From the NCBI RefSeq assembly GCF_039822205.1, contig NZ_JBAGBW010000031.1, forward strand, positions 1-16,500: a stretch of DNA of 16,500 bases. The letters run 5' to 3'. How positions within the stretch are numbered: position 1 is the stretch's first letter; the number at the start of each line of letters is the position of its first letter. A model generated the notes under the pieces. That model ran no database searches. It saw only the letters and a program-made list of their open reading frames with translations, and was not told the DNA's origin. This DNA is from Thermodesulfobium sp. 4217-1 (GTDB lineage Bacteria > Thermodesulfobiota > Thermodesulfobiia > Thermodesulfobiales > Thermodesulfobiaceae). Shown piece after piece: positions 237 to 16,500 of the stretch. Position numbers and translations under genes: made by a program.

Positions 237-3200
237 AATACAGACTTAACCTTTATTACAAACGAAAATGGGCAAAGTTTACTTGAGCGCTTTAAGGTAT
301 TGATAAAGGACGCTGAGTCCTTTGACTGCCTGGTTGGATATTTTTATACGAGTGGATTTTATAATCTCTATGAAGCCTTTGAGAACACAAAAAGAATTAG
401 AATTTTAGTTGGGATTGGCACAGATAAAATAACTCATGATCTTATTCAATTTCAATATCAAACCTCCTATCATCAGATAAGAGAGCTATATTCAGATAGG
501 GTGAAAGAAGAGATAGAGAGCTCAGAAAATAAATATGAAGTAGAAAATGGAATTGAACTTTTTAAAAAGTGGCTTAAATCTGGAAAAATTCAGATCAGAG
601 CCTATCCAGAAAGAAATTTACACGCGAAACTATACATAATGAGCTTTTCTGAAGATGACAGGGATACAGGGCGCGTCATAACAGGTTCAAGCAATTTCAG
701 CCAATCCGGCCTGATTAATAATTTAGAATTCAACGTCGAGCTAAAAAATGTTAGCGATTACAAGTTTGCCAAAGAAAAGTTTGAAGAACTTTGGGAAAAC
801 TCCGTTGAAGTAAGTGAAGACTATATCACAACCGTAGAGCAAAAGACATGGCTAAGAAGTGACATATCCCCTTATGAATTATTTTTAAAATTTTTATACG
901 AATACTTCAAGCGCGATTTGGAAGAGTCAGGCGAGCTATACAATTTAGAGCTTCCAGATGAATTTTTACACCTTGAATATCAAAAGCAGGCTGTCATAAA
1001 CGCAAGGCGTATCGTGGAAGAATACGGAGGGGTCTTCCTGTCTGACGTTGTGGGGCTTGGCAAAACCTATATGGCGGCAATGCTTGCCTCACAGCTTGAT
1101 GGCAGAACTCTTATATTAGCCTCTCCTGTTCTAATAGATCCCGAAAATCCTGGCTCATGGGTAAACGTGTTCAGAGAATTTAACTTAAAATTCGAAGCAG
1201 AATCTATTGGGCAATTAAAAAGGATAAAGGAAAGATTCAACCTTGATAAGTACAAAAATGTCATAATAGACGAGTCTCACAGGTTCAGAACTGAAGACAC
1301 AGTCTCTTATACCCTTCTTTCTGAAATATGTCGTGGCAAAAGGGTAATATTGGTTAGTGCAACTCCATATAACAATTCTCCAAAGGATATCCTGTCTCAG
1401 ATAAAACTATTTCAAAATCCACGAAAGAGCACAATACCAGGCATATCAGATTTAGAGGGTTTCTTTAACAATCTGGAAAAAAATTTAAAAAGTATAGACA
1501 AAAAGGAAGACCCAGAAGAGTACATCGAAGCAGTTAAGGAAAACGCATATCTCATAAGAGAAAAAGTTTTAAAATATCTTATGATAAGGCGAACAAGAAG
1601 CGAGATAGAAAGATATTTTTCTAAAGACTTAGAGAAAAATAAATTAAAATTCCCTCAGGTAAACGATCCAATAGCTCTATTTTATGAGTTAAATGACAAA
1701 GAAAACGAAATTTTTGACATAACCATAAAATTAATAACAAAAAAAATTCGCTATGCAAGGTACACCCCACTTCTTTACTTGAAATCAAAAGATCTCTCGA
1801 CCATAGAAAAATATGGACAGCTAAATATGGGTACATTTATGAAAGTGCTGCTTGTAAAGAGACTGGAGAGCTCTTTTTATGCATTTCGACTAACGATAGA
1901 TCGCTTTATAGATGTCTATAAAAAATTTATAGATGAATTTGATAGAGGAAATGTATATATTAGCAAAAAGTATACCAATAAAATATTTGAATATATAGAA
2001 AATGACGATGACAAAGCTATTCAAAAGCTAATAGAAGAAGATAAGGCCGAAAAATATTCAAGCGATGAGTTTGAAGAAAAATTTAAAGAAGATCTAAAAA
2101 ATGATTTCGATACTTTTTGCAGGATAAAAGAGATATGGGAAAAGGTTAATAGAGATCCAAAGCTTGAAAAGCTCCTTGAACAATTAAATACAAATAAAAT
2201 TTTGAAGGATAAGAAATTAATAATTTTTAGCGAATCAAAAGATACAGTAAATTATATTTCAAAAGAGATTAAAAAAAATCTTAATAAAAAAGTGCTGGTA
2301 TTCAGCAGCTCATCAAGCAATAATACAAAAAACATCGTTATAGAGAACTTCGATGCCAAAGCGAAGAATAAAAGAGACGACTACAATATACTCATTTCTA
2401 CTGAAGTGTTGTCTGAAGGCGTGAACCTACATAGGTCAAACGTGATCATAAACTATGATATCCCATGGAACCCCACAAGGATGATGCAGCGAGCAGGCAG
2501 AATAAACAGAGTTGATACGAAATTTGATGAACTATATGTTTTTAATTTCTTCCCCACCCAACAGTCAAACGATCAGATTAACCTCAAAGAAATAGCACAG
2601 GCCAAAATTGATGCCTTTCTCACACTACTTGGTGAAGATGCAGCAGTGCTAACTGAGGGTGAACCAATAGGCTCACATGAACTATTTGGAAGATTGACTT
2701 CAAAAAATACAATTACTGGAGAAAGCGATTTAGACAATAGCGAATTAAAATACTTTAGACTTCTTCAAGATATCAGGGAAAACAATCCAGATCTGTTCCA
2801 AAAAATTAAATACCTGCCAAAAAAGGCAAGAAGTGCGAAGGTTAATAAAGAAAACACTGGTTTGCTCACTTTTTTCAGAAAAGGCAAATTGATGAAATTT
2901 TATTTATCAAATCGTGAATCCACATTAGAACTTGATTTTTTAACGGCTGCGAAAATACTAGAAAGTATTCCTGAAGAGAAAATCATAAAACTTCCACTTG
3001 AGAGCTATTACGAACTGCTTGATAAGAATAAAACTGCATTTTTTAATGCCACAATTGATGAGATAATAGAAATCCGTTCTAAGAAAGGTAGAGATAGTTC
3101 AACACAACTTCTTAAAATCCTTAAAGCAACACAAAAAAATGGCAGGCAATTAACCGAAGACCAGGAAGAATATCTAAAAAAAGTAATAAACCGTCTTGAA

Positions 3201-3416
3201 GAGGGCTCATTACCGAAAAAGACAGTTCAGAAAACCCTTAAAGCATTAAATGAACTTAAGAAAGACATTCAAAATCCATTAAAAGTTATCGGGATACTAC
3301 AAAGGGAGATCTCACCTACCTTTCTTAAAAGTCATTATGCAGAGACTTCTGCTATAACAGAAGGAAAAAGGGAAGTTATTTTATCACTTTATTTAACTGG
3401 GGAAAGCAATGGATAG
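234..3416 (+). CDS. PLD-nuclease domain / SNF2-family DNA helicase (restriction-type translocase subunit)
   Basis: A protein of about 1060 residues, probably an ATP-driven DNA translocase with an attached nuclease domain. Residues 1 to about 190 form a phospholipase-D-like domain, with HAK (H130, K132) and GSSNFS near 151, a single HxK set as in PLD nucleases that work as dimers. The SNF2 motor follows: Walker A GLGKT 274-278, DESH 346-349, SATP 375-378. The C-terminal helicase half has STEVLSEGVNL near 722 and the motif VI region MMQRAGRINRVD from 750. The first canonical start, TTG at 300, would remove conserved-looking sequence (TFITNENGQSLLERF). The frame is open to 213. GAGGGG at 221-226 sits 7 bases before ATC at 234, so I place the start there; ATT at 228 is the alternative. 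The stop overlaps the methyltransferase gene by 8 bp. Helicase and PLD family are clear; the role in restriction is inferred from context. Confidence 0.9.
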   Translation: MNTDLTFITNENGQSLLERFKVLIKDAESFDCLVGYFYTSGFYNLYEAFENTKRIRILVGIGTDKITHDLIQFQYQTSYHQIRELYSDRVKEEIESSENKYEVENGIELFKKWLKSGKIQIRAYPERNLHAKLYIMSFSEDDRDTGRVITGSSNFSQSGLINNLEFNVELKNVSDYKFAKEKFEELWENSVEVSEDYITTVEQKTWLRSDISPYELFLKFLYEYFKRDLEESGELYNLELPDEFLHLEYQKQAVINARRIVEEYGGVFLSDVVGLGKTYMAAMLASQLDGRTLILASPVLIDPENPGSWVNVFREFNLKFEAESIGQLKRIKERFNLDKYKNVIIDESHRFRTEDTVSYTLLSEICRGKRVILVSATPYNNSPKDILSQIKLFQNPRKSTIPGISDLEGFFNNLEKNLKSIDKKEDPEEYIEAVKENAYLIREKVLKYLMIRRTRSEIERYFSKDLEKNKLKFPQVNDPIALFYELNDKENEIFDITIKLITKKIRYARYTPLLYLKSKDLSTIEKYGQLNMGTFMKVLLVKRLESSFYAFRLTIDRFIDVYKKFIDEFDRGNVYISKKYTNKIFEYIENDDDKAIQKLIEEDKAEKYSSDEFEEKFKEDLKNDFDTFCRIKEIWEKVNRDPKLEKLLEQLNTNKILKDKKLIIFSESKDTVNYISKEIKKNLNKKVLVFSSSSSNNTKNIVIENFDAKAKNKRDDYNILISTEVLSEGVNLHRSNVIINYDIPWNPTRMMQRAGRINRVDTKFDELYVFNFFPTQQSNDQINLKEIAQAKIDAFLTLLGEDAAVLTEGEPIGSHELFGRLTSKNTITGESDLDNSELKYFRLLQDIRENNPDLFQKIKYLPKKARSAKVNKENTGLLTFFRKGKLMKFYLSNRESTLELDFLTAAKILESIPEEKIIKLPLESYYELLDKNKTAFFNATIDEIIEIRSKKGRDSSTQLLKILKATQKNGRQLTEDQEEYLKKVINRLEEGSLPKKTVQKTLKALNELKKDIQNPLKVIGILQREISPTFLKSHYAETSAITEGKREVILSLYLTGESNG

Positions 3417-6400
3417 AGAACACGCAAGAAATCTAATAATTGAAACCTTTGAAAATTCTTTTAATGAAAATAATTTTAAAAAATTCATTTCCAATCTATT
3501 CAAGAGCTACGATAGGACTAAAGCCCTTCAGCCAAGATATGGGACACAGGGCATTACCGAAAGATACCTTGGTTTCATTAGCTCCTGGGAAAGAATTGGC
3601 CGTTATGAGGATAGTGATGGCAAAAAAATTGATATATTGATAATAAAACTAAAAAAAGGGCAATCTCTTTCCAGAGCAAGAACCGCTCAGAGAAACTTTG
3701 TCGCCGATTATTTAAAAGGAAAGCTTGGAACAACTACAGAAAAAGATGCAGCTCTTATTGCCTTTGTCCCACCCGATTCCAATGAGTACGATTGGCGATT
3801 TTCTTTGGTAAAATTGGACTATCGTTTTGAGGGGAATAAACCAAAAGAAGAATTTACTTCTGCTAAAAGATGGTCCTTTTTAGTCGGTAAAAATGAAAAA
3901 AGTCATACTGCCCAAAGCAGATTTTTACCCATAATTGAAAATGATGAATTTCAACCCACGCTTGAAGATTTAGAAAAAGCTTTTGATGTTGAAGTTGTAA
4001 CAAAGGAATTTTTTGAAGCTTACAAATATGCTCTCAGAGAGATCATTATTAAGTCCCTTTCTAAGTTTAACCTTCCCTATGAAAAGAAGCATTCATTTTC
4101 TCAGTTGTTATTATCAAGGATTATGTTTTTATACTTCTTACAGAGAAAGGGATGGCTCAAATGGAAAGATTACGTTCAGGATAAAAATTACATAAAAAAT
4201 CTATGGCTAGAATATAAAAATTGGCGTGAAAAGAAAAAAGCGAAAAATCTCTTCTACTCTGAGTGGCTATCCAGCCTTTTCTTTGGAGCTTTTAACAAGA
4301 AAAATCATCTGTTTCATCCAAACTTGCCAGAAGATATTAAAGAATCTTTTAGCATTATGCCTTTTTTAAATGGTGGTCTTTTTTCTCGCACACAACTGGA
4401 TGAACTTAACTTTGACCTTCCTGATGATGTGTTTGAATGGTTGTTTGAACCAGACTTCTCTGACCTAAAAAAAGGCTTTCTTGAAACATTCAATTTTACC
4501 ATTGACGAGTCTCTACCGGTGGATGTGGAAGTTGCTGTTGACCCTGAAATGCTCGGTAAGGTTTATGAATCATTGATTGCGGAGGAAGAAAGGGGAGGAG
4601 CAGGTATATTCTATACTCCAAGGGTAGAGATTGACTTTATATGTAGAACGTCCCTTGTGGAATACATCTCTAATGAAACAACAATCCAAAAACAAAAAAT
4701 AATTGACTTTGTTTTTAATCCTCATGAAAGCATCGTTAATTTATCAAATGATGAAGCAAGAGAGATAAAGAAGAAACTTGATGAAGTAAAAGTTGTTGAT
4801 CCAGCCGTTGGTTCTGCTTCTTTTCTTGTCGGTATGATGAATACTCTGGTTGCAATTCACCAGGAATTAACCAGAAAACTTGAAGACAAAGAAGAGAATC
4901 TATTTACCTTAAAGCAGAAAATAATCCTTGAAAATCTTTATGGTGTTGATGTCAAAGATTGGGCAGTTATGGTTGGAGAGCTTCGGCTCTGGTTTTCTCT
5001 AATTATAGAAACCGATGAAAAATATATGGACATCTACACAAAACCACTTTTGCCAAATCTTTCATTCAAAATCCGTCAGGGCGACTCCCTTATTCAGGAA
5101 ATTGCCGGTGTTCATATAAATCTTAAAATCGAAATCAAAATGTTGAACATTCCAAAGCAAATCAAAGATAAAATAACAGAACTAATTAAAAGAAAATCTA
5201 CATTCTTCTCTGGTTTAAGAAGCGCTGACCTTAAAGAAATCAAAGAAATTGAAAAACAGGAACAGGATATATTCAAAGAGATTATTGAGATGAAAATTAA
5301 CGAAGTATATAAAGACAGATCATATCTTGAAACCCAAATTGCAAACTTAAAATCTACGAAGAAACTTTTTGGAGAAGGAAGAACCAAAAAAGAGCAAGAT
5401 GAAATTAAAAAACTTGAAGAAAAACTGGAAGGAATTAATTCCGCATTTAATAAATACAAATCACTTTTAGAAACAATAGGGAGCAAAACACAAAAAGATT
5501 ATTTCCTCTGGGGACTTGACTTTATTGAGGTCTTTTCTCAAAAAGGTGGCTTTGACATCGTGATTGGCAATCCACCTTATGTTAGGCAGGAACTTATAGC
5601 TCCACCCCTTGAAAATAAAAATAATTACACAGACGATAAGTGGCGTGAAATTAAAAGAGAATACAAAGAAAAACTTATTCAATCAGTAAAAAACACATTG
5701 GATGTTCCAATAAAAATTGACAGAAAAAGCGATCTATATGTGTATTTTTACTATCAGGGATTATCACTTTTAAAACCCGGTGGAATTTTTACCTTTATTA
5801 ACTCAAATTCCTGGCTTGATGTTGGCTATGGAGCAGGACTTCAGGAGTTTTTGCTTAAAAATATGAAACCAGTTTTTGCTTTTGATAACTTGAAAAAGAG
5901 GTCTTTCAAACAGGCAGATGTAAATACAGTTATTGTAGTAATTCAGAAACCAGAACAAAAACTTGATGATTACACAATAAAATTTGTTGCCTTCAAAAAG
6001 CCCTTTGAAGAGGTAAACAATGCAGAAGTTGTAAAGAAAATCTATAACGCAAGCCAGCCCATTTTTGACGATGAAGATTTCAGAATATATCCAAAAACTA
6101 AAAAAGAACTTTTGATTGAAGGAGTTGAGATACCAGAGGAAGAGTCAGGATTGTTAAAATTTGAACCAGAACATCTTCCTTACATTGGCAATAAATGGGG
6201 TGGAAAATATTTGAGAGCACCGGAGATTTATTTTAAGATTTTGGAGAAAGGAAAAGGTAAATTGGTGAGGTTGGGCGATATTGCGGAAGTAAAAGCAGGT
6301 ATTATTACTGGTAATAATGCGAAATATTATCGTCCAAAATTGAAAGAGTTTAATAAAAATGAACATTCTTTAGTATTCAAAAGTCCTCGTGAAGTCAACA

Positions 6401-6963
6401 AAATATTTCTTACAGAGAATGATGCAGTTTCAATTATAAAAGTAAAAAATGTACCTTTTGAAATTAGGAAAGCACCTTTACTTTGGGTTGACCTAAGAGG
6501 TGATAAACATATTTGTCACTTTAATAAAGATAATCTCCCATTTGAACATAATTTTTATGGAATTTTTGGGAAAAATATTGAAAATAAAACAGTGTGTTTA
6601 TTTTTAAATTCCACTTTAGTTTGGTTTTTTATAGAAGTTTTAGGTCGTAAAGGTTTGGGAGGTGGTGCAATTAGGATGGTAAGAATTGATCTCTTACAAC
6701 TTCCATGTTTAAAGAGTCTTCATTTGGATTTTGATAAGTTTCAAGGATTTGTTAATCGTGAAATAAAATCTGTTTTCACCGAGCTTGGTTTTGACCCAAA
6801 CAAGCCCATTCGTGAGCAGGAGCCAAATCCATTGCCCGACAGAAAAGCCCTTGATGACATCATTTTTGATGCCCTTGGCTTGACAGAAGAAGAACGAAAA
6901 GAGGTCTACTGGGCAGTCGCCGAACTCGTAAAAACAAGACTAGAAAAAGCAAAGAGTGTGTGA
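3409..6963 (+). CDS. Eco57I-type N6-adenine DNA methyltransferase with C-terminal target-recognition domain
   Basis: A 1184-residue protein that should transfer a methyl group from SAM to adenine N6 in DNA. Motif I is DPAVGSASFL (464-473) and motif IV is NPPY (721-724), the gamma-type order. Between them lies a long charged, probably coiled-coil insertion (about 590-690), as in Eco57I and PglX-like enzymes. From about 951 (LVRLGDIAEVKAGIITG) it resembles a type I S-subunit/TaqI-type target-recognition domain, so specificity is carried in the same chain. The N-terminal 180 residues contain GRYEDSDGKKIDILIIKLKK, placed where type IIG enzymes carry a nuclease, but the usual acidic residue of an E-x-K motif is not evident. 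It overlaps the helicase gene by 8 bp and is followed after 3 bp by the DUF3800 gene. No separate S subunit or endonuclease gene is present. PglX of BREX is an alternative relative, but no other BREX gene is seen. Confidence 0.9.
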   Translation: MDREHARNLIIETFENSFNENNFKKFISNLFKSYDRTKALQPRYGTQGITERYLGFISSWERIGRYEDSDGKKIDILIIKLKKGQSLSRARTAQRNFVADYLKGKLGTTTEKDAALIAFVPPDSNEYDWRFSLVKLDYRFEGNKPKEEFTSAKRWSFLVGKNEKSHTAQSRFLPIIENDEFQPTLEDLEKAFDVEVVTKEFFEAYKYALREIIIKSLSKFNLPYEKKHSFSQLLLSRIMFLYFLQRKGWLKWKDYVQDKNYIKNLWLEYKNWREKKKAKNLFYSEWLSSLFFGAFNKKNHLFHPNLPEDIKESFSIMPFLNGGLFSRTQLDELNFDLPDDVFEWLFEPDFSDLKKGFLETFNFTIDESLPVDVEVAVDPEMLGKVYESLIAEEERGGAGIFYTPRVEIDFICRTSLVEYISNETTIQKQKIIDFVFNPHESIVNLSNDEAREIKKKLDEVKVVDPAVGSASFLVGMMNTLVAIHQELTRKLEDKEENLFTLKQKIILENLYGVDVKDWAVMVGELRLWFSLIIETDEKYMDIYTKPLLPNLSFKIRQGDSLIQEIAGVHINLKIEIKMLNIPKQIKDKITELIKRKSTFFSGLRSADLKEIKEIEKQEQDIFKEIIEMKINEVYKDRSYLETQIANLKSTKKLFGEGRTKKEQDEIKKLEEKLEGINSAFNKYKSLLETIGSKTQKDYFLWGLDFIEVFSQKGGFDIVIGNPPYVRQELIAPPLENKNNYTDDKWREIKREYKEKLIQSVKNTLDVPIKIDRKSDLYVYFYYQGLSLLKPGGIFTFINSNSWLDVGYGAGLQEFLLKNMKPVFAFDNLKKRSFKQADVNTVIVVIQKPEQKLDDYTIKFVAFKKPFEEVNNAEVVKKIYNASQPIFDDEDFRIYPKTKKELLIEGVEIPEEESGLLKFEPEHLPYIGNKWGGKYLRAPEIYFKILEKGKGKLVRLGDIAEVKAGIITGNNAKYYRPKLKEFNKNEHSLVFKSPREVNKIFLTENDAVSIIKVKNVPFEIRKAPLLWVDLRGDKHICHFNKDNLPFEHNFYGIFGKNIENKTVCLFLNSTLVWFFIEVLGRKGLGGGAIRMVRIDLLQLPCLKSLHLDFDKFQGFVNREIKSVFTELGFDPNKPIREQEPNPLPDRKALDDIIFDALGLTEEERKEVYWAVAELVKTRLEKAKSV

Positions 6964-6966
6964 TGG

Positions 6967-7818
6967 ATGAAAGGTTTTAATGATATTTTAGATATATATA
7001 CAGATGAGAGTGCAAGTAAAAGTCAGAGATTTAGATCAATCTGTGCCATTAGTGGATTGAGCAATAATTTAGAAAAATTAAAAGAAGAACTAAAAAGTAA
7101 GATAAATTTGTATGGGTTATCTGAACTAAAGTTTGCCGAAGTTAGAACTCATCAACCAAGGGTAAATTGTGCAAAAGATTTTATTTCTGTAGCAGTTGAT
7201 TACGCTTCAAGAAGAGAGATAAGAATAGGTGTGATTATATGGGATTTACATGATAGTCGCCATTCAATTCAAGGCAGAGATGACAGGGAAAACTTAGAAA
7301 GAATGTATTTTCATTTGTTAAGGAATATTGTAGAGAGATGGAAAAGATTTAATTGTAGATTCTACCCAGATGAACATTCTAAATACAATTACAAAAAAAT
7401 TGTTGATTATCTTAGTAAAACAAAATATCCGAGAGAGGAACCTTATATCTTGGAACTTTTTAGAAAGGAAAGACGTCAGTTTAACTTCATTGATGTAAAG
7501 GAACAAAAATCAGAAGAACAGGTTTTAATTCAATTAGCTGATTTATTTGCTGGAATTGCTTGTTTTTCAAGGGAAAATGCAAACAATTTTAAAAGCTATA
7601 AAAAGAAAAAAGAAGATGAAACAGAGGATATCGGAAAAACTTTTAAAAATAGATTTGAACTTATTGAACTTATAAAAAAAGAATGTGAAGAATGCAAAAT
7701 AAAAATCAGCTTAAATACCTGTGATTTCCTTAAAACATTTAAACCTTCTCAACCTATAAACTTTTGGCATTATGAACCACAAGGAGAATATGACAAAGCA
7801 CCAACAAGAAAAAAATAA
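6967..7818 (+). CDS. DUF3800 domain-containing protein
   Basis: A 283-residue protein with the hallmarks of DUF3800: an N-terminal strand ending in an acidic pair (IYTDESA, 11-16, D13/E14), WDLHD (92-96), PDEHSKY (134-140) and the C-terminal helix QLADLFAG (189-196). The conserved acidic residues suggest a metal-dependent nuclease-like fold, but no activity is established for the family to my knowledge. No signal peptide or membrane segment is seen. It starts 3 bp after the methyltransferase stop and its end is overlapped by the next gene, so it is probably translationally coupled within the operon. DUF3800 genes are frequent beside restriction and other mobile defence genes, so I infer an accessory or effector role here. 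Confidence 0.85.
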   Translation: MKGFNDILDIYTDESASKSQRFRSICAISGLSNNLEKLKEELKSKINLYGLSELKFAEVRTHQPRVNCAKDFISVAVDYASRREIRIGVIIWDLHDSRHSIQGRDDRENLERMYFHLLRNIVERWKRFNCRFYPDEHSKYNYKKIVDYLSKTKYPREEPYILELFRKERRQFNFIDVKEQKSEEQVLIQLADLFAGIACFSRENANNFKSYKKKKEDETEDIGKTFKNRFELIELIKKECEECKIKISLNTCDFLKTFKPSQPINFWHYEPQGEYDKAPTRKK

Positions 7819-8542
7819 AAATTTAAATCTGAACCAACTTGGCAACCGCTGGCTTGAATTGAAAAAACAGCGGATGCAGAACCTTTTGAAAATTGCCTTG
7901 CCAGATGAAGCACTTTACAGAGAAATTATGCTCTCCCTTGGATATCCCAATAATAAGGTGAATTTCTTAGAGCTTGCACTCATTACTCCTTATGCTGATA
8001 TAAGGAAATTAAAGGAAAGGCAAATTATAGAGAAAGCCCTTTTATACAGGGCAGGATTTACAGATGATAAAGAAGGATTATCAGAGGATTTTGATTTTTC
8101 TTTGAAGATAGATAAATCCGTCTGGAACTATAAAGGCATAAGACCAGCAAACTTTCCTGAGAAAAGAATTAAAGGAATATCAATTCTACTATCGCAGACA
8201 ATTGAAAAAGGAATAGTAAATTTCTTTTTAGAGCGTATTAAAGCGGAGATAAATAATAGAGACCCAAAAGATGCAGTAAAGAAAATAATGAATTTCGGCG
8301 GGATTGGACTTCAAAGAAAAGTGGAGATGTTTTTCAATATAATAATGCCTTTCTTTATGGTTTATTCGGACGGCGATGAAATCATAAATTTTCTGAATTT
8401 CATTTTTCAAAAACATCCACCATTAAGTGAAAACAAACTTATTAAATCTTTCAAACTCAACCATCCAGATATTAAGATTGAGAATTTTAGAACATATATG
8501 GGTGCTATACTGCTTCAAAAAAAGGAACTCTTCAACGATTAA
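7790..8542 (+). CDS. DUF2851 family protein, C-terminal half only
   Basis: About 250 residues. The string LPDEALYREIMLSLGYPNN (37-55), then FLELA, then GIRPANFPEKRIKGI (116-130) and a GGIGLQRK.EMFFNIIMPF segment (about 175-193) match, from memory, the second half of DUF2851 proteins (usual length around 400 or more). The N-terminal half is absent, and its place is taken by the end of the DUF3800 gene. I choose ATG 7790 over the in-frame ATG 7772 because AAGGAG (7781-7786) lies just upstream, though only 3 bases away. This gives a 29-bp overlap with the DUF3800 gene. Function is unknown. It may be a truncated leftover or a protein that now works with DUF3800; its intact frame and coupling favour expression. 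Confidence 0.7.
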   Translation: MTKHQQEKNKNLNLNQLGNRWLELKKQRMQNLLKIALPDEALYREIMLSLGYPNNKVNFLELALITPYADIRKLKERQIIEKALLYRAGFTDDKEGLSEDFDFSLKIDKSVWNYKGIRPANFPEKRIKGISILLSQTIEKGIVNFFLERIKAEINNRDPKDAVKKIMNFGGIGLQRKVEMFFNIIMPFFMVYSDGDEIINFLNFIFQKHPPLSENKLIKSFKLNHPDIKIENFRTYMGAILLQKKELFND

Positions 8543-8625
8543 AATAGCTCTCAAATCACAAATCCTCTCCTTCACCCAATCCCCTGACTACGAGACAAAC
8601 CAAACGAAGCAGGCAAAAGTGTAGC

Positions 8626-8643
8626 CGCAGGCTTCAGCCTGCG
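8626..8643. repeat. REP-like GC-rich palindrome
   Basis: CGCAGGCT (8626-8633) and AGCCTGCG (8636-8643) form a perfect 8-bp inverted repeat around TC, in otherwise AT-rich intergenic DNA. Similar GCAGGCT/AGCCTGC palindromes occur as repetitive extragenic elements in many bacteria and are moved by RAYT (REP-associated tyrosine) transposases. Only one copy was seen in this window and no RAYT gene. No T-run follows, so it is a poor intrinsic terminator. Confidence 0.5.
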
Positions 8644-8648
8644 AAAAT

Positions 8649-9119
8649 GTATTACTTGAAGCCCAATTCGACCACCTGGTTTAAAAGCTTTATAATTTAA
8701 CAGACGAAGAGATTAAAACAATAGAAGGTTACTACCAAGACGGATTATTCAACGGACATGGGGTGTTAAAATGGCCTAGTGGACTAGTTTACTAAGGCGA
8801 ATGGAAAAATGGAATTCGTGAAGGGCATGGCATACTTAAAAACGCTTCAGGAGAAGTAATCTATGATGGTCTCTGGAAAGACGACAAACCGCTTCAAACT
8901 TCAAATCAGCAAGGGAGCACAGCCTCTGAAAAAGTTAAAAAGGTGCTAGACATTCCCTGGGGAGCAAGTAAGGGCGAAGCAAAGCAGATCATGAAACAGC
9001 GTCCAAATACAAATTATGTTAACACTGAAAAGAGAGCTAATAATACAGTCAGACAGAAATATATAGATCAGTTCAACAATAACCAGGCAGAATTCCTTTT
9101 AGATTTAAAGCCTCTTTAA
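8649..9119 (+). pseudogene. Type IIG-like enzyme C-terminal remnant fused to a MORN-repeat gene, with two in-frame stops
   Basis: One frame runs through the whole stretch and is interrupted by TAA at 8682 and TAA at 8793. Before about 8729 it reads VLLEAQFDHLV-stop-KLYNLTDEEIKTIEG, like the C-terminus of Eco57I/type IIG methyltransferases (typically 'ldrlVYeLYgLteeEi.iveg'). It then reads GYYQDGLFNGHGVLKWPSG, GEWKNGIREGHGILKNASG and YDGLWKDDKP, which are MORN repeats. An IPWGASKGEAKQIM tail follows, ending at TAA 9117-9119. The first stop replaces an expected Tyr codon and the second an expected Glu (Y-E-G-E-W, GAA to TAA), each a single base change. No start codon or ribosome binding site was identified. 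The gene is decayed; how the two parts became joined is unclear. Confidence 0.75.
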
Positions 9120-9251
9120 TCTTCATCCTTTCCATCTATTCAAGCAAGGCTTTTCTAACAATGTCGCTAAAATTTGCTTTAGGATCTATGCGTTTAATAT
9201 CTTTAAATATTTTTCATCAATCGTAATTGTTTTTCTGATAATACTATTCAT
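9073..9251 (-). pseudogene. Ribbon-helix-helix (CopG-like) antitoxin, frameshifted
   Basis: From ATG at 9251-9249 the minus strand reads MNSIIRKTITIDEKYL. After one missing base near 9200 another frame continues KDIKRIDPKANFSDIVRKALLE, then TAG at 9138-9136, then MERMKIKEA. Joined, this is a short protein with a basic beta-strand (RKTITID) and two helices, as in CopG/RHH antitoxins. The TAG sits where Tyr is expected. The ribosome binding site is excellent: GAGGTGAT, complement of 9255-9262. The 3' end is uncertain: the second frame stops at 9075-9073, inside the tail of the convergent MORN remnant. No toxin partner is visible, so this appears to be an orphaned, inactivated antitoxin. A sequencing error could explain the frame change but not readily also the TAG. 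Confidence 0.65.
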
Positions 9252-10513: not shown

Positions 10514-11835
10514 ATTCTATAAAATTTAAGCTGTTCTTATACTACTGCGTTATATCCTTTGCAATATTTGGAATATTGGGGACATTTTTATACCTTAGCC
10601 TTGAAAATATAGTTTTAGAATCAATCGATAACGCTCTAACTGCAAAGGCTAAAGCGATTGCCACGCTTATCAATGAAGACGAGGGAATAAACTTTCAATA
10701 TTCAGATGAAATGTCAAAAGAGTATTCTCAACATTCAAATCAATACTTTCAGATAATTCAAGATTCGAAAGTTGTTGAAAAATCTAAATCTTTAGGCTCT
10801 GATAGCCTGCCGATTGTCAGCTCAGCCCAGACCATTCACTTTAAGAATAAACCCATTCGAATTGTGCTATACAACCTCACAATAGACAAAGAACACCTTA
10901 TTATCGAGTGTGCGCAAGACATTGAAAATAAAATAGACTTGCTCCAAACCTACCTAAGCATATTATTTTTATCAATTGTTGGAGCAATCTTTTTGAGCGC
11001 TTTAGGTGGTCTATTTATCGTAAACATAATGCTCAAACCAATCAAAAAGATCTCTTACACAATCAGTAAACTCTCTGAATCGAATTTGTTCCAGAGTCAT
11101 ATCGACGAAAACGTGGTAGATGAGCTAAGGCCTCTTGCAACCTCATTCAATCGCACATTTGAAAGGCTTGACAACGCGTTTACTAAACAAAAACAATTCG
11201 TCGCAGACGTCTCTCACGAGCTGAAAACTCCTCTTAGCGTAATAATGATGGAGACAGAGATTGCGCTCAGAAAACAGCGAAACGTCCAGGAATATATAAA
11301 CACAATCAATCAGATAAAAGAGAGCTCCCAACACATGAAAAGCATTATAGAAACTCTGTTCAAGCTTATAAAAATAGAAAACACACAGCTTCTGGAAAAG
11401 AAAACTCTTGATATTAAAGAAATAATTCAGAAATCAGCATCGCTATTAAAAGATCAGATAGAAAAAAAGCGCTTAAGGTGTAACATAAAGGGCGATACAT
11501 TTTTGATTGATGCTGATGAAACGCTAATTATGGAAGTCTTCTTAAACCTTATAGACAATGCAATCAAATATAATAGAGAAAGCGGCACGATAGATATTTT
11601 CATTTATCCAGAAAAACGCGTAGAGATAGTAGATAGCGGCATTGGAATATCGAAAGAATCGCTTGAAAGGGTGTTTGACAAGTTCTACAGGGCAGATCCT
11701 TCCAGGTCAAAAGAAATTGAGGGTTTAGGGCTGGGCCTGAGCCTTGTAAAGGAAATTTTAGATCTGCACAATGCCAGAATTGAAATAGAAAGCACGCCCG
11801 ATGTGGGAACGAAAGTAACTATCACAGCCTCTTAG
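10510..11835 (+). CDS. HAMP-containing sensor histidine kinase
   Basis: A 441-residue inner-membrane sensor kinase. Membrane segments lie at about 7-30 and 148-173, enclosing an extracytoplasmic sensing region of about 118 residues. A HAMP domain (about 172-225) follows, then the HisKA dimerisation domain with phosphorylated H236 in VSHELKTPL. The ATPase domain has an N box with N346 and N350 (NLIDNAIKY), G1 DSGIG (375-379), FDKFYRADPSRS and G2 GLGLGL (405-410). All key residues are intact. It overlaps the regulator gene by 4 bp and should phosphorylate D54 of that protein. The signal is unknown; the exported PepSY protein encoded upstream is a candidate modulator of the sensing region. Confidence 0.95.
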   Translation: MNSIKFKLFLYYCVISFAIFGILGTFLYLSLENIVLESIDNALTAKAKAIATLINEDEGINFQYSDEMSKEYSQHSNQYFQIIQDSKVVEKSKSLGSDSLPIVSSAQTIHFKNKPIRIVLYNLTIDKEHLIIECAQDIENKIDLLQTYLSILFLSIVGAIFLSALGGLFIVNIMLKPIKKISYTISKLSESNLFQSHIDENVVDELRPLATSFNRTFERLDNAFTKQKQFVADVSHELKTPLSVIMMETEIALRKQRNVQEYINTINQIKESSQHMKSIIETLFKLIKIENTQLLEKKTLDIKEIIQKSASLLKDQIEKKRLRCNIKGDTFLIDADETLIMEVFLNLIDNAIKYNRESGTIDIFIYPEKRVEIVDSGIGISKESLERVFDKFYRADPSRSKEIEGLGLGLSLVKEILDLHNARIEIESTPDVGTKVTITAS

Positions 11836-11964
11836 TCAAAAGCTCTATTTTAAATACAACTTTTTTTCTAAATAATTTTTCAACCATTTAAGTAGACTTT
11901 TTTTTCTGTTTCTCCCTCCTACAAAACACAATAAGCCCGCTTAGGTAGTCTTTGATTACTATAT

Positions 11965-13379
11965 TTATTTCGTGTCATCTTCATCTAAAAAATCAATCAG
12001 ATTTGGCACAGCTCCTAATTTACCTGTTTTATAAAAATTATAATATGAATTTTTTTTTCGTATCTCCTTAAAATCAGAAAGAGAAAACAGATCAGTAGAA
12101 CCATCTGTCTTTTTCTCAGTAAACCATATAATATCCTTTCTGATTAAGTCTTTATTCATAAGCAATTCTCTGTTGTGAGTGGTGCCTATTAATTGAAAAT
12201 TGTGTTTTCTGCTCATCTTTAAAAAGGTTAAAATAGAATGTTCTATTAAGTCTGGATGCAGCGATCTGTCTATCTCATCAATTACAAAAATTTTACTTTC
12301 ATTTTTGCTTTCAGAAAGTGCCTTTAATAGAATATTCATTAAAACGTAATATCTTTTTATTCCGCTGGACTCATCATCGAAGGGTAAGCTAAAATTCTCT
12401 TTATAAGAGTGATGTAATATAGTTTTAAAAGGCGTAAGATTAAATCCGATATCAGTTTGATCTTGTAAATCTATATCTTGTGTCATATTTTGATCTTCAA
12501 AAAATATATCATTTTCTGTTTCTTGCATTTTTTTGCTTTTTTGTACTATATCTACATCAGTTAAACTAAAATCGGCTATTTTTAATAAATTCACAAGTTT
12601 ATTTTTAGGTATTTTACCATTAAAAATATTTTCAGATATAAAATCTAAAGTGAGAAATTCTTCAAATATGCCCATCAACTTCTCATCTGATAAAATAGAT
12701 GGGTCCAAATTAGAATTAGCAAAAAGTTTACTTTGAAATAATTGAAATAACATCCTGTAAGGAATAAAAAACTTATGTGGATCTATTGTTAGTTCAAGAT
12801 TAAACCAACTTCTAACTGACTTTAAAGTTTCAAACTCTATATTTGTTTTAAGATAACTTGCTATAACAGTATCGTTACATAATGTATTGGCACTCAAAGC
12901 ATCTTTGTCAGCCCTACTTATCTTCACCTTTGAACCAAATTTAATTTTAGATAATTCTTTCTCTTTGTCAGTAGCTCTCTCAAAAATCAAACTTTTTTTA
13001 GGAGAAAAAGAATATAGGGATTCTTTAACAATAAATTTTTTATTCAGTTGAATCTCATATAAATATCTTTCGTCACTTACAAACTCTATTGAAAAAAACT
13101 ATCTTTATCTTTATCAAGAGCAAATGGTTTTAAATTAAACTCAAAACTTTTGTTATTAAATGGCATTATGACAAGTTGTCGCAAAAAGGCAAGAGCTTCC
13201 ACTATGCTCGTCTTTCCAGATGCATTTGGCCCAAATATAAGAGCCATTTTTAATATTTTCGATTTTCCAATAGAACTAACGTAATATTCATCTAAATGAT
13301 CTGACCCAACTGGCTCAAATGATAGGTTAACTTTATCCCTAATAGATTTAAAGTTCTCAACAGAAAAATTTAATATCAT
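11965..13379 (-). pseudogene. RloA-like AAA15-family ATPase, split by a frame change
   Basis: The start is ATG 13379-13377 on the minus strand. The first 97 codons read MILNFSVENFKSIRDKV and Walker A GPNASGKTS (50-58), then end in SFFQ-TAG (13088-13086). A -1 shift within the T7 run (complement of 13092-13098) restores a frame reading SIEFVSDERYLYEIQL, which stays open to TAA at 11967-11965, for about 471 residues in all. The second part holds the signature-like ESSG, Walker B KIFVIDEIDRSLHPDL, the H-loop GTTHN and a C-terminal GKLGAVPNL. That end and the overall layout match RloA/AAA15 ATPases linked to restriction loci. No RloB partner gene follows; the convergent kinase gene lies 129 bp beyond. 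It is either a true pseudogene, a homopolymer error, or a gene read by frameshifting or polymerase slippage. Confidence 0.8.
13092..13098 (-). other. T7 slippery heptamer at the frame break
   Basis: On the coding (minus) strand the zero frame reads agT-TTT-TTT-CAA-TAG. T_TTT_TTT has the X_XXY_YYZ form of -1 frameshift sites, and a -1 slip enters exactly the frame that carries the rest of the ATPase. The zero-frame stop comes one codon later. I see no obvious downstream hairpin or upstream Shine-Dalgarno-like stimulator, so simple indel or sequencing error remains likely. Confidence 0.4.
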
Positions 13380-13416
13380 ATTATTTTTTCTCCCCTTTTT
13401 TACAACTTACTAACGT

Positions 13417-13454
13417 ATTTTATCGAAAAACTATAAAAAGTCAAATGTTTATAG
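13417..13454 (-). promoter_or_regulatory. Promoter of the AAA15 gene with overlapping inverted repeat
   Basis: On the minus strand a -35 box TTGACT (complement of 13439-13444) and a -10 box TAAAAT (complement of 13417-13422) are 16 bp apart. The inverted repeat CTATAAA (13431-13437) and TTTATAG (13448-13454), spaced by 10 bp, straddles the -35 box and could be an operator. Between promoter and ATG is a GGGGAG ribosome binding site, about 10 bases before the start. Confidence 0.5.
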
Positions 13455-13477
13455 TTTAAAAAAAGTAGTATAAAATG

Positions 13478-13500
13478 TTAAGAATGATTAAGAATGATTA
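13478..13500. repeat. Short tandem repeat in the divergent control region
   Basis: The 10-bp unit AGAATGATTA occurs twice in a row (13481-13500), with a preceding TTA partly repeating it. It lies between the two divergent promoters, about one face of the helix per unit, and could be a regulator site. It could also be chance in AT-rich DNA. Confidence 0.4.
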
Positions 13501-13532
13501 AAACTTAATATTTTTCATAAAGAAAGAAATGT

Positions 13533-13561
13533 TTGATTAGAAACTCAATAAAGCTTATAAT
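13533..13561 (+). promoter_or_regulatory. Sigma70-like promoter of the AAA ATPase/TOPRIM operon
   Basis: A -35 box TTGATT (13533-13538), a 17-bp spacer and a perfect -10 box TATAAT (13556-13561). The start site would be near 13568, giving a short leader with GGGAG (13581-13585) 5 bases before ATG 13591. This is the best promoter match in the window. Confidence 0.65.
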
Positions 13562-13590
13562 TTATTTAAAATTAGAGGTTGGGAGAAAAA

Positions 13591-14628
13591 ATGTTTAAAA
13601 AACTATCAATAGAAAATTTTAGAGGATTTAATAAATTCTCGATTGATGGTTTGTCGGATATAAATATTTTTACAGGAGCCAATGGCTGTGGTAAAACTTC
13701 TGTACTTGAAGCTGTATTTTTACTTTCATCTCAATCCCGTACATTACCAATTAATATAAATTCTCTACATCAATTTCGCACCAAGAATACTTATCTTATA
13801 GGTTTTTTCAGTCCGAGCCCATTTGAATACCTTTTTAAAGACATCACAAAACCCATCGTTATTAATTCCGAAGACACTACACTTGAAATAAAGCCTATTA
13901 CTTCTGAATTTTCTCAATTTTCCACAACAGCATCTCCTACTCTTACTGGAATTGATATTTTCCTTAATGGCGAGCATCAAGGCAAATATTCTTGGCATAA
14001 CAACATCATAAAAGATGAGCTTAGTGGAAAAGAAATTACTAATGAAATTACTAATGATTTTCAAAATATCCTTGTAACAACCTTTATATCGCCATATTTT
14101 TGTAATATCGAAGGATTTTATATTACGTTGTTAAGCAATATGATAAAAAATGGAAAACGTAATGAAATATTAAAATTATTTCAGATGTTTCATCCAGAAA
14201 TTAAAGATTTTACCTCACTAAGCGATAGAGGCACCCAAACAATTTTTGTTGATATTGGTACTGGAAGATATATACCCATTAGTCTTCTTGGAACAGGATT
14301 TCTTAATTTTATAGACACAATATTGCCTGTTTTTGCCCTTAAAAATTCAATAATTTTAATTGATGAAATAGAAGATGGCGTCTATTACTTGTATGTGCCA
14401 AAATTATTAAAAACGATTTTTGAAATTGCCAGAGAAAACAACAATCAATTGTTTATTACAACGCATTCAAAAGAGCTCTTGTTATCGATTGTTTCTGTAA
14501 TTCAAGATCTAAATAAAGAAGATAGTATAAGTTTTTTCAATATAAATTTTGCAGAAAATGTTGATGTAGATAGATATTCTATTGAAGATGTCAAAAATTT
14601 AATGGAAATTAACTTAGATATAAGATAA
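13591..14628 (+). CDS. AAA family ATPase (ABC/OLD-type) of a two-gene ATPase-TOPRIM pair
   Basis: A 345-residue SMC/ABC-like ATPase. Walker A is GANGCGKTS (29-37), preceded by the family's typical LSIENFRGF. A signature-like segment ISLLGTGF lies near 230, Walker B LIDEIEDG has D258/E259, and the H-loop TTHSKE has H292. Such proteins (AAA_21/OLD-like) dimerise around ATP and DNA and control a partner nuclease. ATG 13591 is chosen over the in-frame TTG 13579 because GGGAG (13581-13585) lies at the right distance. The stop overlaps the next start by one base (TAATG), indicating coupled translation and probably a protein complex. No membrane segments. It is distinct from the AAA15 protein encoded divergently: here the ATPase lacks any TOPRIM domain of its own, which is supplied by the neighbour. 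Confidence 0.88.
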   Translation: MFKKLSIENFRGFNKFSIDGLSDINIFTGANGCGKTSVLEAVFLLSSQSRTLPININSLHQFRTKNTYLIGFFSPSPFEYLFKDITKPIVINSEDTTLEIKPITSEFSQFSTTASPTLTGIDIFLNGEHQGKYSWHNNIIKDELSGKEITNEITNDFQNILVTTFISPYFCNIEGFYITLLSNMIKNGKRNEILKLFQMFHPEIKDFTSLSDRGTQTIFVDIGTGRYIPISLLGTGFLNFIDTILPVFALKNSIILIDEIEDGVYYLYVPKLLKTIFEIARENNNQLFITTHSKELLLSIVSVIQDLNKEDSISFFNINFAENVDVDRYSIEDVKNLMEINLDIR

Positions 14629-15299
14629 TGAGTTATAAATTTTATGACAATGATAAAGGCAACACAATTTTTAATGAGAAAAATCAAAAATGTATATTTC
14701 TCGCAGAAGGTTTATCAGAGGCGCTTTTTTTAGAAAAGTGGTTAAGCTCAGAAGAAGAATGGTCACAAAAATCTGAATTTATTTCTGTTATCTGCTTTCA
14801 AGGTGTTGACAAAATAAAAGCTACCCTTAAGAGAATTGAACAAAAAATTAGACAATGCCTTGGTGTAGGCTTTTTTCTAGATGCAGAAGATAAAAAAATC
14901 ACTGATAGATTAAAGCAAATCGAAGATGTATTAGAAATACATAAAATTATCGATACTGGAACAAACAAATTAAGAGCTGGAGAATTAAACCAAATTAGTG
15001 ATCGTAACTTATCATCAATAGCTATTTATATATCTCCAAACAACAAAGACAATGGTTGCATAGAAGATATTGTTGTTGAGGAAAACGAGATAAAAACATG
15101 GAAATGCATCGAATGTCTAAGGGAATCAAGCGAATATAATAACATCAACAAGTCTATAGTCCAAGCATATCTGGGATGCAAAAAGCCAGGCCTATGCGGC
15201 ACAGGTCGAGGTTTTGAAAGTGGTATTCTAGATGTTAATAGCTCAGTTTACAGTAAAATTACTGATCTTTTTTCAAAACTTTTAAGGAATTCTTGTTGA
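14628..15299 (+). CDS. DUF3226/TOPRIM-like protein, partner of the AAA ATPase
   Basis: A 223-residue protein with the layout of DUF3226-type TOPRIM domains: a glutamate at the end of strand 1 (FLAEGLSEALFLEKWL, E27), FQGVDKIKATL (57-67), an acidic cluster FFLDAEDK (D85, E87, D88) and PNN..NGCIEDIV (137-149). It ends with a QAYLG and FESGILD region typical of the family. The TOPRIM fold binds Mg2+ and cuts or joins DNA or RNA in OLD nucleases, topoisomerases and primases. Its start overlaps the ATPase stop (TAATG), so the two are co-expressed. I infer an ATPase-gated nuclease analogous to OLD, GajA or the AriA/AriB (PARIS) pair, but whether this subfamily cuts nucleic acid is not shown. Confidence 0.75.
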   Translation: MSYKFYDNDKGNTIFNEKNQKCIFLAEGLSEALFLEKWLSSEEEWSQKSEFISVICFQGVDKIKATLKRIEQKIRQCLGVGFFLDAEDKKITDRLKQIEDVLEIHKIIDTGTNKLRAGELNQISDRNLSSIAIYISPNNKDNGCIEDIVVEENEIKTWKCIECLRESSEYNNINKSIVQAYLGCKKPGLCGTGRGFESGILDVNSSVYSKITDLFSKLLRNSC

Positions 15300-15451
15300 T
15301 ATGAATAGCATTTATCCCCTTGATTAACTTAAACATATTACTCACTTTTTAGCAATAAAAAGCTTGTTAATTTCTTGCATTATCAGTAATTCTTGAGATT
15401 TTTGTTTACTAAAGCTGTCAAAGATAAATTTAGAACATAAAATGAGGTGCT

Positions 15452-16303
15452 ATGCCAATAGTTTTAGAAAAAGATAATTGCAAAGAAAAAATAAAGGTTC
15501 ATCCGATTGTAAAATGGGCAGGAGGGAAAAGACAGCTAATTTCGATAATTAAAGAAGGTATGCCTGAAAATTTCAATCGTTATTTCGAACCTTTTATAGG
15601 AGGCGGCGCTGTTTTCTTTGAAATACAACCTGAAAATGCCTATATTTCTGACACGAATGAAGAATTGATAAATTTATATAATGTAGTAAAAAATAACCCC
15701 CTGGACTTAATAGTTGATTTACGCAAACACAAAAACACTAAAGAATATTTCTTGATAATTAGAAACGCTGATAGGAATGCAAGTTATAGAGATTGGTCAA
15801 ATGTTCAAAAAGCAAGCAGATTTATATATCTAAATAGAACTTGTTATAATGGGCTTTATAGGGTTAACAGCAAGGGTCAGTTCAATGTGCCTTTCGGAGA
15901 TTATTCAAATCCAAAAATTGCTGATGAAGAAAATATTCTTAATTGTTCAGAAATTTTACAAAATACAGAAATAAGATGTGCAAATTTTGCTGAGATATTA
16001 AAATGTGTAAAAAAAGGCGACTTTGTCTACTTCGATCCCCCATATCTTCCTTTAAATAAAACGTCAAGCTTCACATCATACACAAAAGAAGGTTTTAATA
16101 TTGATATGCAGTTTACACTCAAAGCTGTTTGCGATGAGATTGACAAAAAAGGTGCAAAATTTTTACTCTCCAATTCTGATACGGAAGTTATAAACGAGCT
16201 ATACGCATCATATAATATCAAAAAGGTCTTTGCATCGCGCGCTATTAATTCAAAAGCAGATGGACGAGGCAAGATAACTGAGGTATTAATTAGAAACTAT
16301 TGA
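15452..16303 (+). CDS. Dam-type DNA adenine methyltransferase (D12 class, alpha order)
   Basis: A 283-residue N6-adenine methyltransferase. The SAM-binding region has KWAGGKRQL (21-29) and EPFIGGGAVFF (46-56). Next are SDTNEELI and the Dam/DpnM-like DNA-recognition loop LNRTCYNGLYRVNSKGQF (127-144), and the catalytic DPPY (195-198) near the C-terminal third. Length and motif order match DpnM/Dam, which methylate GATC, so GATC is the likely but unproven target. GAGGTG lies just before ATG 15452. No endonuclease gene is adjacent on the same strand, unlike DpnII/MboI operons, so it may be an orphan or provide a self-mark for the neighbouring ATPase-TOPRIM pair. It is separated from that pair by 152 bp and ends 12 bp from the convergent DUF4411 gene. 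Confidence 0.92.
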   Translation: MPIVLEKDNCKEKIKVHPIVKWAGGKRQLISIIKEGMPENFNRYFEPFIGGGAVFFEIQPENAYISDTNEELINLYNVVKNNPLDLIVDLRKHKNTKEYFLIIRNADRNASYRDWSNVQKASRFIYLNRTCYNGLYRVNSKGQFNVPFGDYSNPKIADEENILNCSEILQNTEIRCANFAEILKCVKKGDFVYFDPPYLPLNKTSSFTSYTKEGFNIDMQFTLKAVCDEIDKKGAKFLLSNSDTEVINELYASYNIKKVFASRAINSKADGRGKITEVLIRNY

Positions 16304-16315
16304 ATAGATGATTTT

Positions 16316-16500
16316 TTAACTATTTCCTTCGCAAAATTTAAATCCAGTAATTTTCAAAAAATCAAAAATATTAAGATAATCAATCTGAAAATCCTCACAT
16401 ACATTCGGAATTGGCACATTTTTCTTTATATTTTTATTTAAAATTTCTGTAGTAACAACTTTTAATCCATTAGTCTTAGCATAAGCTATTATCCATGTAT
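16316..16500 (-). CDS. DUF4411 (PIN-like) protein, C-terminal part
   Basis: The minus strand is open from the window edge to TAA at 16318-16316, giving 60 residues. They read WIIAYAKTNGLKVVTTEI, then KNVPIPNVCEDF and IFDFLKITGFKF. This is the ending of DUF4411 proteins (PIN-domain-like; typical 'D.wlIAyA...g.tVVT.E....kIPnvC..f.v....f.lLr..g..F'). PIN-fold proteins are Mg2+ ribonucleases, and DUF4411 genes commonly pair with an HTH/ImmA-type antitoxin gene, which would lie outside the window. The gene is convergent with the Dam-type gene. The N-terminal catalytic acids are not in view. Confidence 0.7.
   Translation of the reverse strand, partial: TWIIAYAKTNGLKVVTTEILNKNIKKNVPIPNVCEDFQIDYLNIFDFLKITGFKFCEGNS

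Follow-up and report, generated by a model that had tools for sequence, protein, structure and literature searches.

An OLD-type ATPase and a TOPRIM-fold DUF3226 protein form a candidate split defence module in Thermodesulfobium

That OLD-ABC ATPases are paired with TOPRIM nucleases is, as a wider idea, established (PMC12839542, PMC10568477). In BpOLD, the OLD protein of Burkholderia, E400, E404, D455, D457, E508, and K562 serve as the ligands of two magnesium ions and as the catalytic lysine (PMC6755086). A comparable residue layout is found in the RNA cutters RNase M5 and AriB (PMC6755086, PMC12409363), and the AriB E26A mutant has lost its tRNase activity (PMC12409363). PARIS, in which the OLD-type ATPase AriA and the TOPRIM protein AriB are encoded separately, is known from hotspots in P2-like phages and their P4 satellites (PMC9122126). 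However, Cran1, an OLD-family ATPase of the Sulfolobales, functions in the cell cycle and, it appears, outside defence (PMC12796447), so the fold alone is no proof of a defence function. PADLOC additionally holds candidate systems (PDCs), which are unpublished, mostly unvalidated, and often located outside known defence islands (PMC12988326, PMC11811056).

We analyzed a window of 16,500 nucleotides from Thermodesulfobium sp. 4217-1. The window spans an entire contig (16.5 kb) of a draft genome of 2.0 Mb, and its phylum is represented in our collection by four genomes of one genus. The following features were assigned:

13591..14628, + strand: gene for an OLD/ABC-type ATPase (AAA_15/AAA_21; PADLOC PDC-M38A), 345 aa from the ATG
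14628..15299, + strand: gene for a DUF3226 protein, a candidate TOPRIM-fold nuclease (PADLOC PDC-M38B), 223 aa
14626..14630, + strand: TAATG stop/start overlap of the two genes, 1 nt, seen in the sequence
13533..13561, + strand: sigma-70-like promoter candidate, TTGATT-17-TATAAT, 10/12 matches, 29 nt upstream of the ATPase ATG
13573..13585, + strand: purine-rich Shine-Dalgarno-like stretch upstream of the ATPase ATG, from sequence inspection
11814..15330, no strand: variable segment of ~3.5 kb (broken RloA-like gene plus the ATPase/DUF3226 pair)
11965-13379, - strand: RloA/AbiLi-like ATPase gene, present as two ORFs because of a frameshift near a run of seven T (~13093)
15452-16498: Dam-type N6-adenine methylase gene and, behind it in convergent orientation, a DUF4411 gene cut off by the contig end
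300-7818: genes for a PLD-SNF2 helicase, an Eco57I-type IIG methylase, and a DUF3800 protein, resembling a DISARM-like or restriction-modification locus
15331-15425 and 1-128: interspersed repeats, present at several places in genomes of the genus

Both ORFs of the pair and their TAATG overlap, with a single shared nucleotide, were found as the first-pass annotation had described them. The same annotation had credited the pair with a strong promoter of its own. The site is plausible, but the region contains 11 promoter-like sites compared with 12.8 ± 3.3 in shuffled sequences, and this lack of an excess leaves the word "strong" without statistical support. Its placement of the pair between other defence genes held in part. 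An RloA/AbiLi-like gene does lie upstream, but it is frameshifted and lacks a partner, as no RloB is encoded in the genome; a Dam-type methylase and a DUF4411 protein are encoded downstream. The frameshift may stem from an assembly error, from phase variation, or from the decay of an AbiL system. One of the interspersed repeats borders the variable segment and immediately precedes the dam gene. At the other end of the window, in the 300-7818 locus, the N-terminal part of the helicase shares 98% identity with its counterpart in a sister genome (G001), while the methylase DNA is strongly diverged, as if the specificity had been swapped.

The ATPase matches the Pfam families AAA_15 (E = 2e-20) and AAA_21 (E = 5e-20). 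Walker A (GANGCGKT, residues 29-36), a Walker B ending in D258-E259, a signature loop with G234 and G236, and the H-switch (H292) are all intact, which bears out the earlier claim of a complete motif set; these key residues are invariant or almost so in the homologues. An AlphaFold2 model (pLDDT 78) aligned with the heads of SMC, Rad50, PtuA, and GajA at Z scores of 16-18, supporting a predicted fold of the OLD/Rad50/PtuA type. Sequence matches to designed PPR proteins were discarded as an artefact of helix composition. In most pairs the ATPase C-terminus reads -(E/D)(V/I/M/A/L)R (DIR in the window copy); the last residue is R in 123 of 161 pairs, and most of the others end in RGE. This conserved tail may serve to dock the TOPRIM partner. 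In one homologue, from an Acetatifactor MAG (L189 3807-6011), the ATPase is extended at its N-terminus by 370 aa that weakly match ParB_N, and a PADLOC profile of 715 aa (PDLC04607) suggests that this extended variant recurs.

The partner scored 53.6 bits against Pfam DUF3226 (cut-off 27), and a weak OLD-like_TOPRIM match was also obtained (E = 0.0036). Its AlphaFold2 model, built from an alignment of 22 sequences, reached a pLDDT of 86 and a pTM of 0.86. The nearest solved structure, both by fold (Z 12.1, 3.4 Å over 186 residues) and by profile (E = 1e-5), is PH0156 (PDB 2p62), a hypothetical protein of Pyrococcus. Next to it stand the nuclease domains of class 2 OLD proteins (Z 10.6 and 10.2, 4.9 and 4.4 Å), with the C-terminal region of BpOLD at Z 10.6, as well as the Thermus OLD protein TsOLD (Z 9.2, 3.3 Å over 132 residues) and T7 primase (Z 8); unrelated folds appear from Z ~7.6 downward. 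AriB was not among the best 50 structural matches listed, which excludes nothing. The structure prediction thus agrees with the TOPRIM fold proposed from the sequence: PH0156 and known TOPRIM domains are the best matches, and the modelled protein has the beta-alpha-beta core, the invariant Glu, and the DxD motif.

The acidic cluster noted in the first-pass annotation is real and conserved. Across 161 pairs, the candidate catalytic residues were found as follows: E27 in 160/160, D/E31 in 147/161, D85 in 159/161, D/E87 in 158/161, E/D146 in 160/161, and K175 in 156/159. In the window protein, E27, E31, D85, E87, E146, and K175 follow the same order as E400, E404, D455, D457, E508, and K562 of BpOLD. 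Equivalents of a two-metal TOPRIM site (E-x3-E, DxD, E, K) are therefore present by sequence order and predicted fold, and in a profile alignment E27 coincides with E26 of AriB. From the conserved residues and the model we infer that the DUF3226 protein is a two-metal nuclease. The fold fits DNA and RNA targets alike, because DNA-cutting OLD, RNase M5, and AriB have similar arrangements of these residues. We slightly prefer DNA over RNA as the substrate, since the active site and the fold are nearest to class 2 OLD.

A rival reading is that the pair directly cleaves the DNA of incoming plasmids or phages as Gabija does, its nuclease being gated by the ATPase according to nucleotide level, without suicide of the cell. 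The nearest solved active sites, those of class 2 OLD nucleases that nick and degrade DNA, agree with this, and the 370-aa extension of the Acetatifactor homologue hints at contact with DNA. The likeness to the RNA-cutting RNase M5 and AriB sites (PMC6755086, PMC12409363) argues against it, and overall we regard a DNA-cleaving pair of this kind as possible, if somewhat unlikely.

Co-occurrence of the two families was assessed from both sides. Starting from the DUF3226 protein, an ATPase gene was found upstream on the same strand in 87/87 stand-alone loci (the top-scoring matches and a selection of the lower-scoring ones, not all matches). It was directly adjacent in 86; in the remaining locus, the pair is split by an insertion of ~2.4 kb with a transposase-like ORF. 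Starting from the ATPase, named genomes of bacteria and archaea were scanned with an ATPase alignment. Of the 80 closest relatives of the window protein obtained in this way, 78 have DUF3226 directly downstream; archaea (Methanosarcinales, Methanothrix, and ANME-2) are among them. The genes are also tightly spaced. In 148 pairs, the offset from the ATPase stop to the nearest ATG was -1 in 45, +2 in 33, and -4 in 10 (88/148), and this ATG lay no more than 30 nt away in 130. These counts support a near-obligate pairing, so the refuting case named in the first-pass annotation, homologues that do not co-occur, did not arise.

The first-pass annotation had regarded the pairing as possibly undescribed, which does not hold: it is already catalogued in PADLOC-DB v2 as the candidate PDC-M38. 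The window ATPase matched PDC-M38A with 134.4 bits (E = 1.9e-39) and the DUF3226 protein matched PDC-M38B with 31.8 bits (E = 2.7e-8). The two genes are adjacent and in the same order as in PDC-M38, and in what was compared the window pair differs by divergence alone, as seen in the low score of the partner. Among the homologues, PDC-M38B was matched by 22/22 DUF3226 proteins and PDC-M38A by 20/20 ATPases. Judged by sequence, the window pair is a member of this catalogued candidate. Our literature search found no paper naming PDC-M38 or DUF3226, and no report of phage resistance or nuclease activity of the DUF3226/ATPase family was found in the literature searched.

The best PADLOC match of the window ATPase was, however, to AbiLi (PDLC02336, 152.7 bits), and AbiLii was matched by one of 22 DUF3226 relatives. 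The pair could hence be read as an AbiL (RloAB) system made up of AbiLi, the ATPase, and a divergent AbiLii, the partner. Yet the window partner matches neither AbiLii nor RloB, and the two PDC-M38 profiles matched all homologues tested. We consider this the least probable of the readings weighed here, and without an RloB the pair is not AbiL.

The resemblance to PARIS is closer in design. As in PARIS, the OLD-type ATPase and the TOPRIM protein are encoded by separate genes, E27 aligns with AriB E26, and homologous pairs turn up in mobile elements, P2-like ones included. In contrast to PARIS, the partner is a DUF3226 protein of 223 aa instead of about 310, and no match to DUF4435 or AriB was obtained for it up to E = 1; only one of the 22 homologues matched DUF4435/AriB, weakly. 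The window ATPase scored 74.8 bits against the AriA profile, but generic matches of the OLD type are widespread. By analogy, the pair may work like PARIS, but the absence of a DUF4435 partner places it outside that system. With class 2 OLD and GajA it shares a similar fold and the TOPRIM set E-x3-E/D, D-x-D/E, E, K. Unlike OLD classes 1-3 and Gabija, it has the ATPase and the TOPRIM domain in two ORFs and not in one fused chain. An adjacent UvrD-like GajB helicase is also absent, the neighbours of the pair being the RloA-like gene and the Dam methylase gene, so the pair is not Gabija. The OLD/Gabija/PARIS design proposed earlier therefore stands for the TOPRIM fold, the OLD-type catalytic set, and the ATPase fold, but not for the fused chain, GajB, or DUF4435, all of which are missing.

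The distribution of the pair is patchy. It was detected in 18/386 genomes across many families and in 68/386 within one phylum. DUF3226 is present in two of the four genomes of the genus, and the window genome has two pairs. The second, divergent ATPase and DUF3226 pair of this genome (G000) lies on contig C38 at 7384-9148 (L041), and one sister species has it too (G002, 416641-417294, L003). In two complete genomes of the genus, the corresponding site between the histidine kinase and dam genes does not contain the segment 11814-15330; in the fourth, each flank of the segment ends at a contig break and lies beside other genes. Homologous pairs were found on plasmids in Acinetobacter, Citrobacter, Klebsiella, and Plesiomonas hosts, and such carriage includes plasmids of 4-14 kb; Citrobacter NZ_CP055541 contains one natural pair. 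A 4071-bp Klebsiella plasmid (NZ_CP070094) has the pair as its sole evident non-maintenance cargo, and on a 6449-bp Citrobacter plasmid it is accompanied by replication and mobilisation genes and an annotated gene for a tRNA modification GTPase. The Plesiomonas pair adjoins P2-like tail genes.

Several searches for viral or further mobile copies gave negative results. The window DUF3226 protein had no true match by sequence in plasmids, phages, or viral contigs, a match at locus L005 being due to chance, and the window ATPase was not found in viral contigs. More conserved DUF3226 proteins (L006, Plesiomonas copy) were not found in the phage collection, and E. coli genomes contained neither the Klebsiella nor the Citrobacter pairs. 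A structure search against viral proteins returned nothing below E = 0.001.

Residence of the family in defence islands, which the earlier annotation implied, was not borne out. When 132 neighbour genes of 20 pairs were compared with 140 genes drawn from randomly chosen regions of those genomes, no enrichment of PADLOC families was detected; this comparison is coarse, as only the 25 commonest families were listed, without a per-gene union. Among 132 neighbour genes of the nearest relatives of the window pair, most are ordinary, with no defence enrichment evident. Since the neighbours are not enriched, proximity to defence islands gives no support for a family-wide role in defence.

The missing enrichment would also suit a housekeeping complex for DNA repair or chromosome maintenance, in which a Rad50- or RecF-like ATPase acts with a TOPRIM protein outside defence. 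The ATPase fold fits PtuA and, equally, the heads of SMC and Rad50, and an archaeal OLD ATPase with a cell-cycle role is known (PMC12796447). The patchy distribution, the strain-specific segment, the carriage on small plasmids, and the adjacency to prophage genes argue against this explanation, which we judge to be highly improbable.

Plasmid carriage itself can be explained in a second way, namely by maintenance of the toxin-antitoxin kind, with the ATPase as antitoxin and the TOPRIM protein as toxin, so that the pair would spread by addiction and not by protecting against phages. The pair is compact, coupled, and near-obligate, it is the only evident cargo of the 4-kb Klebsiella plasmid, and PDB entries name AriA 'AriA antitoxin'. 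On the other hand, the nuclease gene comes second, the regulator is a full ATPase, and most copies found are chromosomal. As mechanisms of defence and addiction overlap, this explanation is partly the same model as a defence module. Taken as an alternative to defence, it appears improbable.

The reading that we prefer, at a probability of roughly 60%, is that the two genes form one accessory, stand-alone defence module of the split OLD/PARIS kind, abortive or nucleolytic in its action. The evidence for defence consists of architecture and mobility: homologous pairs on small plasmids and beside prophage tail genes make a defence role plausible. In such a module, the ATPase would be the regulatory subunit that senses infection, and the DUF3226 protein would be a TOPRIM nuclease with a two-metal site, made in stoichiometric amounts with the ATPase through translational coupling. 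At rest, the nuclease would be bound in a complex with the ATPase and kept inactive, as suggested by analogy with PARIS and Gabija. An infection signal received through the ATPase would release or activate the nuclease, which would then cut nucleic acid and stop the replication of a phage or plasmid, probably at a cost to the cell, and thereby confer protection.

A more specific and rather doubtful proposal is that the pairs constitute a separate class of split OLD systems. They would stand alone on the smallest plasmids or beside prophage tails instead of in defence islands, would serve mainly in the competition between mobile elements by plasmid or phage exclusion, and would have a trigger and a substrate of their own, distinct from PARIS, AbiL, and Gabija.

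If the pair is a defence module as we propose, the name DUF3226 could give way to that of a TOPRIM effector, belonging to a widespread two-gene system that would span bacteria, archaea, and natural plasmids down to 4 kb. It would also suggest that searches based on proximity to defence islands overlook much of the DUF3226/ATPase family. Finally, the pair would make it straightforward to ask whether TOPRIM nucleases caged by ATPases work by one common mechanism or differ in what triggers them and what they cut.
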